Shown: positions 61,835-64,000 of the stretch, in pieces
Position numbering within the stretch: position 1 is the stretch's first letter
Layout: every line of letters starts with the position of its first letter
Assembly: GCF_000971275.1 (NCBI RefSeq)
Contig: NZ_LAPV01000129.1
Span: 62,001 to 126,000 of the forward strand
Origin: Devosia psychrophila
GTDB taxonomy: Bacteria; Pseudomonadota; Alphaproteobacteria; Rhizobiales; Devosiaceae
Direction: 5' to 3'
Length of the DNA stretch: 64,000 nucleotides
Notes under the pieces: model-generated
Told to the model about the DNA's origin: nothing
The model's database searches: none
What the model saw: only the letters and a program-made list of their open reading frames with translations
Program-made: the position numbers and the translations under genes

Positions 61835-62014
61835 TTACTTCTTGACGTTCAGGACCTGACGACCGCCGTACATGCCGGTCTTAAGGTCGATGTGGTGCGG
61901 ACGGCGCAGTTCGCCCGAATCCTTGTCTTCGACAAAGGATCCTGCAGCGAGTGCATCGTGCGAACGGCGGAAGCCGCGCTTCATTGGCGAGGTCTTGCGT
62001 TTTGGCACTGCCAT
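61835..62014 (-). CDS. rpmF: 50S ribosomal protein L32
   Basis: A 59-residue ribosomal protein. [22 protein letters not shown] is the conserved basic N-terminus, followed by [20 protein letters not shown]. It has no cysteines, so this is the zinc-independent form typical of alphaproteobacteria. ATG 62014 fits the family start; longer frames are not supported. Confidence 0.97.
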
Positions 62015-62354: not shown

Positions 62355-62693
62355 TCAGGCCGCTTGCGCGTGCAGGGGTTCGGCCCCTTCAAGATCCCAA
62401 ATGATGCTGAGCCGCTCGGCAGTGCCGACGGAAAGCACGCGAAAGACGCGGTCGGCGCAATCGAGCGCCAGCCGGAAACGCGTGCGGCTCATCGGATCGG
62501 CGACCAGTTCAGCGGCCGAGCCAACCCACATGACGTGGCTACCCTTGGCGAGGAGGAACAAGTGCGGATCGCTCATGCCGAAATGCTCGAGATTTTCGCT
62601 GAGCAGATCATAGGTCTGGCCCGAGCGTCCCTGCCAGTTGCTGTGACGGCCAAAGCCGTGAACCAGAACGTTGTTTTCTACAATTCCAGTCAT
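62355..62693 (-). CDS. Uncharacterised protein, putatively SOS-regulated
   Basis: A 112-residue soluble protein that I cannot assign to a family. It starts NNVLVHGFGRHSNWQGRSGQ and continues with a helix DLLSENLEHFGMSDPHLFLL, then LVADPMSRTRFRLALDCADRVFRV and a hydrophobic strand ERLSIIWDLEG. Trp and His are frequent, without an obvious metal motif. ATG 62693 is favoured by GGGGCG upstream; an ATG at 62714 is possible. The putative promoter has GAAC-N7-GAAC, which is the reverse complement of the alphaproteobacterial LexA box, so it may be induced by DNA damage. It is isolated from other genes. Confidence 0.7.
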   Translation of the reverse strand: MTGIVENNVLVHGFGRHSNWQGRSGQTYDLLSENLEHFGMSDPHLFLLAKGSHVMWVGSAAELVADPMSRTRFRLALDCADRVFRVLSVGTAERLSIIWDLEGAEPLHAQAA

Positions 62694-62725
62694 TTCACGC
62701 CCCGTCCCCGACATGTGTCTAATGA

Positions 62726-62740
62726 GAACAAAATTAGAAC
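62726..62740. promoter_or_regulatory. LexA-like SOS box
   Basis: GAAC-N7-GAAC on the plus strand reads GTTC-N7-GTTC on the minus strand, the direct-repeat LexA box known in alphaproteobacteria, with a T-rich spacer as usual. It lies 33 bases upstream of the start at 62693. Confidence 0.6.
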
Positions 62741-62822
62741 AAAACACGATGGGTGTCAAGTGCCACACTAGACAACATCTAGATGTATGTTCCCGTTCGC
62801 CATTCACGTCAACATGTAGTGG

Positions 62823-63632
62823 TTATTGGCGGGTAGCCCTCGCTTGGCGGACCGCGTCAACTCTCGCCTGAAACTCGGGACTCAACGGGTGGCCAAGGCC
62901 GCGATCGACGGCGTCTAGAATCATGTCATTTGAATTGTCTTCGATGGCGGATTTGAGGCGTTCCATGAAAACATCGGCGGTAAGGCCGGCTTCGATTGGG
63001 GGCAAGAACTTGCCCTCAGCAGTGCCTGGCCAGATCAACAGGCTGTTGCGGCCCCAGAACAGCCCCGAGTTCAGTGCGACCGGCACGACAGGAACATTGA
63101 GCTCCAAATAGAGCCGCACGATGCCCTGACGGTAGTCGGGCTTTGCCAAGGCCGCCTTGCGGGTACCTTCGGGGAAAATGACGATGCGGCAACCGCGGTC
63201 GACGGCGGCGTGGGCCTGGGCCATCATCAGCGGAATGGCCTCGGCGCCCTTGCGGCGGTCAACCTCGATGCAGTCGAGCGACCTGGCGGCCCAGCCAAAG
63301 AAGGGAATGCGCATCAGTTCCTTCTTGACGATATAGGCAGGACGACCTGCATGGGGAAAAATGGCGAAGACGTCCCAGTCGCTCTGATGCTTGCTGGCGA
63401 TGATACAGCCGCCCTCGGGGATGTTTTCCTGGCCCGTCATTTTCGTTTTAACGCCGGCCAAATAGCGAACAAGTTTCAGGCTGGAGCGGCACCAGTATCT
63501 GGCAATGGCCGAGCTGAGCGGCGTACGGCCGCTAATGAGCGCAATAGTGCCAAGGGTGATCGCCACGAGTGCGGTCTGGCCGATGAAGAAAATATAGAAA
63601 ACCGCGGTGCGCAGGGCTTGCAGGACTGCCAT
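62823..63632 (-). CDS. plsC: 1-acyl-sn-glycerol-3-phosphate acyltransferase
   Basis: A 269-residue inner-membrane lysophosphatidate acyltransferase. An N-terminal membrane helix (about residues 8-34) is followed by the H-x4-D catalytic box SKHQSDWD (His81/Asp86 approximately), VKKELMRIPFFGWAAR, FPEGTRKAAL for glycerol-phosphate binding and VPVVPVALNSG. It makes phosphatidic acid for phospholipids. It lies beside an ftsX-like gene on the same strand, a recurrent arrangement in Hyphomicrobiales. Confidence 0.95.
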   Translation of the reverse strand: MAVLQALRTAVFYIFFIGQTALVAITLGTIALISGRTPLSSAIARYWCRSSLKLVRYLAGVKTKMTGQENIPEGGCIIASKHQSDWDVFAIFPHAGRPAYIVKKELMRIPFFGWAARSLDCIEVDRRKGAEAIPLMMAQAHAAVDRGCRIVIFPEGTRKAALAKPDYRQGIVRLYLELNVPVVPVALNSGLFWGRNSLLIWPGTAEGKFLPPIEAGLTADVFMERLKSAIEDNSNDMILDAVDRGLGHPLSPEFQARVDAVRQARATRQ

Positions 63633-63852: not shown

Positions 63853-64000
63853 TCAGGAGGTTTCGGCGAGAAAGCGGCGCACGGTGACACGGGAGGTGAT
63901 GGCGGTCAGTCCGGCAATAACCGGAACGACCGCCGCAATGCCGATAATGCCGGCGAGCCCAAGGGCGAAGCGGCCAAACAGCACGCCGACCTGGGCTCCG
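63853..64000 (-). CDS. ftsX: Partial FtsX-like protein (C-terminus only)
   Basis: The reverse strand reads open from the window edge to a TGA at 63853. The last 48 residues hold a membrane helix (FALGLAGIIGIAAVVPVIAGLTAI) followed by TSRVTVRRFLAETS, the ending typical of FtsX permease-like cell-division proteins. The start and most of the gene lie outside. The neighbouring plsC supports the assignment, as ftsE-ftsX are near plsC in this group. Other membrane proteins are possible. Confidence 0.55.
   Translation of the reverse strand, partial: GAQVGVLFGRFALGLAGIIGIAAVVPVIAGLTAITSRVTVRRFLAETS

Follow-up and report, generated by a model that had tools for sequence, protein, structure and literature searches.

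The locus

The window, by which is meant the entire 64,000-nucleotide stretch of DNA that was analysed, comes from a 4.52-Mb genome whose nearest named relatives are Devosia. Close to its far end, on the minus strand, lies a gene for a protein of 112 amino acids (62355-62693; ATG start, stop codon included in the span), which is entered here, with the reservations developed below, as a putative degenerate GIY-YIG-like SOS protein. An in-frame ATG at 62714 is an alternative start that would generate a protein of 119 amino acids; the start at 62693 is preferred because it matches the start chosen in most orthologues. The minus-strand gene order is ftsE, ftsX, plsC, the 112-amino acid gene, rpmF, fumC (ftsE and ftsX being named by reading the sequence): the 3' end of ftsX occupies 63853-64000 (minus strand), and the gene continues past the window; the plsC-type acyltransferase gene (Pfam PF01553), which is the upstream syntenic neighbour, spans 62823-63632 (minus strand); rpmF, which encodes ribosomal protein L32 and lies outside the system under consideration, is the downstream neighbour (61835-62014, minus strand). 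A preliminary description of this DNA had singled out a solitary 112-residue reading frame with no known SOS gene adjoining it, and both points are borne out, the neighbours being plsC, rpmF and fumC.

The predicted LexA box, GTTCTAATTTTGTTC, is a perfect GTTC-N7-GTTC (62726-62740, minus strand); it is located upstream of the gene, as had been claimed, and is separated from the ATG by 32 rather than 33 bases. A -35-like TTGACA (62754-62759, minus strand) stands 17 bp from a candidate -10-like hexamer, TAATTT (62731-62736, minus strand), that is placed inside the box. The hexamer matches the consensus at 3 of 6 positions in the window and reads TATTTT in many orthologues; a scan for consensus promoters reported no sigma-70 site at the 112-amino acid gene.

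LexA boxes in the source genome

The window holds one GTTC-N7-GTTC versus 1.48 expected by chance: taken by itself, its lone box is not significant. The genome-wide scan that the preliminary description had recommended finds the pattern in excess, even with the window count at chance level. The excess is modest for the general pattern (131 occurrences of GTTCN7GTTC versus 86 of the reversed pattern) and clearer for the T-ended form (35 occurrences of GTTCN6TGTTC versus 11 of the reversed pattern). A box of the T-ended form is found just upstream of lexA itself (identified by its match to PF01726), and T-ended boxes, surveyed at 30 loci, adjoin genes read as recA, ssb, radA, imuA and comM (named by reading); several other T-ended sites among the same 30 loci fall within genes and look random.

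Two side observations concern other genes of this genome. A second uncharacterised small open reading frame, of 77 amino acids (L122), has a perfect box, GTTCTATTTTTGTTC, approximately 65 bases from its start (box at G000:C61:42849-42863), and perfect boxes also lie beside helicase-like and radical-SAM-like genes (L120 and L132, named by reading only).

Conservation of the box in Devosia and its family

Since the lone box of the window is at chance level, it is conservation, and not the window count, that supplies the non-chance evidence. A search of 61 relatives finds the 112-amino acid protein in 37, which are all the genomes of the genus, and in 0 of the 24 from other families. (A technical note: there is one match per Devosia genome; the match in genome G017 is a contig-edge fragment and was left out, leaving 36 loci.) Each of the 36 Devosia loci has a perfect box 0-32 bases before the nearest in-frame start codon (the start as taken by script), and in every case the box is preceded by a -35-like motif. 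A wider Devosia set yields the box in 81 of 83 loci, as against 10 boxes in all the rest of the sequence of these loci, 405,071 bp; the 83 loci are not independent, because some contigs are common to the two sets (L001-L036 and L061-L107) that compose them. The boxless rows, both in the second set, are L073, with 13 bases of upstream sequence, and L107. When the boxes are filtered for the usual spacer shape, which keeps 81 of 91 and leaves out 10, a -35-like motif is found 18-20 bases before each of the 81. The commonest forms of the box are GTTCTATTTTTGTTC (35 occurrences) and GTTCTAATTTTGTTC (22). In 82 of the 83 loci the gene directly follows a plsC gene of the same orientation. In the other genera of the family a perfect box is found no more than 250 bases from the match in 9 of 9 orthologues.

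Locus L107 is that of Candidatus Devosia symbiotica, where the reading frame of the gene appears to be interrupted and the search for a box came up empty; this suggests that the SOS function of the gene has been lost in a symbiont.

The gene beyond the family

At E <= 0.01, a profile built with the other genera of the family has matches in 74 of 297 genomes searched within the order, among them some short matches judged to be false; it also finds the gene in 9 of the 11 genomes of one other family. (Another technical note: the weak matches L057, L059 and L060, together with several from the order-wide search, are short segments of open reading frames of 280-520 amino acids; they were judged false and set aside.) A class-wide search matched 10 of 385 genomes, the source genome included.

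The box extends with the gene. Outside the family it is perfect in 13 of 18 loci, and in 21 of 30 loci of a second sample, where boxes were accepted within approximately 400 bases and in either orientation, some of them in unusual positions; simple arithmetic from the genome-wide density of the pattern leads one to expect approximately 0.4 boxes in 30. The group of more distant "bridging" relatives introduced below has it in 16 of 30 loci. Locus L185, whose match starts inside the gene, has no box.

A plsC relative precedes the gene, in the same orientation, in 34 of 48 loci of other families (for the 14 without a plsC match, the upstream sequence covered amounts to 0.85-1.5 kb), and many of these genes are therefore orthologues at one locus. 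In one genus, g38, the position after plsC is kept in 10 loci and there is no box within 300 bases of the conserved Trp. The orthologues of this genus (L166, L171-L174, L179, L180, L185, L195 and L196) end in a Ser/Thr-rich C-terminal extension rather than in Ala-Ala. The best reading is that this is an old gene of the Hyphomicrobiales, usually located just downstream of plsC.

The proposal that this is an SOS-box gene is thus upheld, by conservation of the box (it is perfect in each of the 36 Devosia loci, in all nine orthologues from the family's other genera, and in a majority of the loci of both samples drawn outside the family) and by the box upstream of lexA; what had been named beforehand as telling against it, namely orthologues without the box or boxes at chance frequency, was examined and leaves it standing. 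Judged from sequence, the 112-amino acid gene is almost certainly under SOS (LexA) control.

Fold and ancestry

The window protein matches no family in Pfam, NCBIfam or PHROGs above cut-off, and PF01541, the GIY-YIG model, matches neither it nor any of 35 members of its subfamily. PF22039, Imm75 and other scattered matches are weak and inconsistent across the family, and were rejected. The statement that the protein belongs to no recognisable family accordingly holds for these three libraries; fold and distant relatives are more informative.

The AlphaFold2 model of the window protein (made with 45 sequences; pLDDT 81.9, pTM 0.74) consists of an N-terminal hairpin followed by strand-strand-helix-strand-helix. 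Its best three Foldseek matches in the PDB are all the GIY-YIG domain of UvrC (probability 0.93-0.87, E 0.15-0.28, TM 0.39). A second model, of the protein of another species (pLDDT 81.4), has UvrC GIY-YIG as its best five matches (probability 0.80-0.60, E 0.51-0.91); TM for the UvrC matches is 0.39-0.40 across the two models, and the non-UvrC entries listed have probabilities of at most 0.12. The two models are not independent, because most of the alignment is common to both. The VIA alignment to the UvrC domain, over residues 34-106, gives Z = 3.9 and is tied with that to an unrelated pilin, TcpB, at 4.1. Taken alone, these model-based matches to UvrC are weak. In the GIY...YIG register, two strands and the start of a helix would fall in residues 45-65 (L45-F46 and W56-V57-G58), encoded by 62499-62561 (minus strand).

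A second line of evidence runs through intermediates. A relative encoded by plasmid pCC829_3 of Bradyrhizobium barranii, WP_231146028.1, is annotated as a "GIY-YIG nuclease family protein". Searching with it yields matches in 98 of 249 genomes of the order, some of them members of the SOS family themselves; 30 of the relatives found in this way constitute the bridging group. By hhalign the bridging group matches the order-wide profile of the SOS family (A4) with a probability of 99.6, and the Devosiaceae profile (A3) with a probability of 94.5 over 96 columns. PF01541 matches two of nine relatives tested, below cut-off (E 0.0074 and 0.057) and in the GIY...YIG register. When hhalign is used to compare the family directly with canonical GIY-YIG sequences, no significant match results (probability at most 9.3, and at most 0.1 with -glob 0).

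Is the resemblance to UvrC merely that of a common beta-beta-alpha-beta-alpha arrangement, adopted by an SOS-controlled protein that is unrelated to GIY-YIG and has its function elsewhere? Foldseek E-values above 0.1, a Z-score of about 3.9 and the non-significant direct profile match are what such a reading would lead one to expect; what speaks against it is that the top family is the same for both (non-independent) models and that the bridging relatives and the GIY...YIG register agree with it. Such an unrelated fold is considered unlikely, and GIY-YIG ancestry, which is supported rather than proven, is considered probable.

One bridging relative, L252 (G159:C6:911954-912259), is worth noting separately. 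It has near-complete GIY-YIG motifs (FIGET, ER, IESDL and PPLN) and a LexA box approximately 118 bases upstream of the match; it is possibly a catalytic SOS paralogue.

Catalytic residues

The residues that occupy the catalytic columns can be read off in the register assigned by hhalign, and the comparison involves four sets: 29 canonical sequences (L202 was left out, as there is a stop inside the stretch taken), the 30 bridging relatives, 40 order-wide rows, and 45 rows from Devosia and near relatives (A2). In this register the column of the YIG tyrosine has Y in all but one of the 29 canonical sequences and in 0 of 30 bridging relatives (A or F in 20); W predominates there in the order-wide rows (32 of 40) and is universal in the A2 rows (45 of 45), where it is W56 of the window protein. 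The column of the catalytic metal-binding glutamate has E in every one of the 29 canonical sequences, in 18 of 30 bridging relatives, in 3 of 40 order-wide rows and in 0 of 45 A2 rows; I or V takes its place in 43 of the 45, I98 in the window protein. The balance of this evidence tilts toward loss of the canonical GIY-YIG chemistry.

Other positions are retained. D100 does not vary among the 40 order-wide rows, nor do R70 and E102 among the 45 A2 rows; the invariant R70 is a candidate for the helix arginine that follows YIG, with a spacing that differs from the canonical one. The most conserved part of the protein is the added hairpin, W-x-G-x-S-G-x-x-Y, five positions of which are kept in 38-40 of the 40 order-wide rows. 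D100, R70 and E102 could constitute another active site, and their fixation therefore leaves another activity possible.

Carried to its conclusion, that thought yields an active SOS-induced small endonuclease of the kind of E. coli Cho or Caulobacter CC3518, its active site rebuilt around W56, R70, D100 and E102. The GIY-YIG-like fold of the models is in its favour, as are the fixed residues just enumerated and the precedents on record for a small UvrC-like gene with an SOS box and for damage-inducible Cho (PMC1839093). Against it is the absence from all 45 A2 rows of the YIG tyrosine and the metal-binding glutamate that 28 and 29 of the 29 canonical sequences, respectively, retain; an active endonuclease is regarded as improbable.

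The C-terminus

The protein ends in Ala-Ala in 36 of 36 Devosia proteins, after a linker that varies; the background frequency of this ending is 6 in 92 open reading frames of at least 200 amino acids in stretches of the same genome. Among the other genera of the family one of nine orthologues (L048) is without it, and outside the family the ending is patchy by clade (18 of 48). Ala-Ala C-terminal ends are recognised by ClpX, and the tmRNA tag of the same genome, ANDNNKAPVALAA, ends in ALAA. By analogy, the protein is probably short-lived and degraded through its Ala-Ala end.

A small protein with a LexA box and an Ala-Ala end in 36 of 36 cases also brings to mind the SOS-induced, rapidly degraded inhibitors of cell division, such as SulA, YneA or SidA, as does the location of the gene downstream of plsC and, in the source genome, also downstream of ftsE-ftsX. 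The gene seems, however, to have its own promoter, and its position need not therefore reflect its function. SidA and YneA have a transmembrane segment; none is seen by eye in the sequence or the model of the window protein, the model looking like that of a soluble protein, and the protein also matches no division inhibitor in the Pfam and NCBIfam libraries. A role as division inhibitor is judged distinctly unlikely.

What might the protein do?

The preferred reading is of a degenerate GIY-YIG protein, repressed by LexA and probably short-lived, that acts on DNA or on a repair complex; as a whole it is evenly poised between right and wrong. The gene would be a core member of the Devosia LexA (SOS) regulon. 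LexA bound to GTTC-N7-GTTC would, from the placement of the site, cover the -10 region and block transcription; upon DNA damage, RecA-driven cleavage of LexA would free the promoter and the gene would be expressed. The product would be a compact, single-domain derivative of a GIY-YIG nuclease to which an N-terminal hairpin has been added and in which the catalytic Tyr and Glu have been replaced (W56 and I98), so that cutting of DNA by the GIY-YIG mechanism would be lost. During the response it may bind DNA that is damaged or branched, or else a complex of repair nucleases, for instance UvrBC, after which ClpXP would remove it through the C-terminal Ala-Ala. That the product binds DNA or a repair nuclease without cutting is a tentative proposal, somewhat short of an even bet. 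More speculative still is the general form of the idea, that an ancestral SOS gene of the Hyphomicrobiales, located after plsC, specifies a regulatory or structural pseudo-nuclease, produced upon DNA damage, that either binds intermediates of repair or holds cutting of the UvrBC type in check and is disposed of by proteolysis once the damage has been dealt with.

Two further explanations can be dealt with briefly. That the box arose by chance and SOS regulation does not extend to the gene is a view that draws on the window count of one against 1.48 and has next to no probability, being contradicted by conservation (each of the 36 loci has a perfect box close to its start codon, preceded by a -35-like motif). 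A phage origin was also considered and rejected: scanning viral contigs with profile A1 (from which L007 was left out as a near-duplicate) produced 17 pattern matches, none of which was confirmed as a relative; searching phage records with a bridging protein found no relatives; and the gene sits at a fixed chromosomal locus.

With a LexA box that is kept in much of a large order, a constant genomic position, and a fold that is probably derived from a nuclease and altered in its catalytic residues, this gene is a concrete and probable new component of the alphaproteobacterial SOS response. If the preferred reading is true, SOS control can persist over a GIY-YIG domain from which the catalytic residues have gone. 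Three features go beyond the preliminary description: the protein probably descends from GIY-YIG nucleases, the gene keeps its position behind plsC, and the protein ends in Ala-Ala. No description of the family was found in the literature searched, the scope of which takes in few subscription papers, and an earlier listing as an unnamed SOS gene is possible.

Comparison with known systems

The LexA motif of Caulobacter is given as GTTCN7GTTC (PMC12700426), and an SOS-linked GIY-YIG domain exonuclease of Bacteroidetes is mentioned in PMC8565304. E. coli Cho, a damage-inducible UvrC homologue, is related to the N-terminal part of UvrC (PMC1839093), and damage induction is likewise what the Devosia box predicts. 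The two differ in that Cho is described in the same account (PMC1839093) as larger and as making a 3' incision, whereas the Devosia protein is known from sequence and models alone.

The N-terminal GIY-YIG domain of UvrC itself (PDB 1ycz and mutants) is the best Foldseek match of both models, and the VIA alignment to it covers residues 34-106; identity in the structure alignments is 8-17%, and the Devosia protein is without the catalytic Tyr and Glu. For most of its length WP_231146028.1 is related to the order-wide family, and it shares the W-x-G-x-SG hairpin; it differs in retaining YVGQS and an E-x-D motif, and has no perfect box in the 400 bases upstream of the match.

Caulobacter crescentus has small UvrC-like (COG2827) genes, among them CC3518, which has an SOS box (PMC1839093). 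Compared by description, CC3518 is a putative endonuclease of known domain, whereas in the Devosia protein the canonical Tyr and Glu are missing, an N-terminal hairpin has been added, and no GIY-YIG model matches. CC3518, with its UvrC N-terminal-like domain (PMC1839093), is, like the Devosia protein, a small, single-domain alphaproteobacterial protein whose gene has an SOS box.
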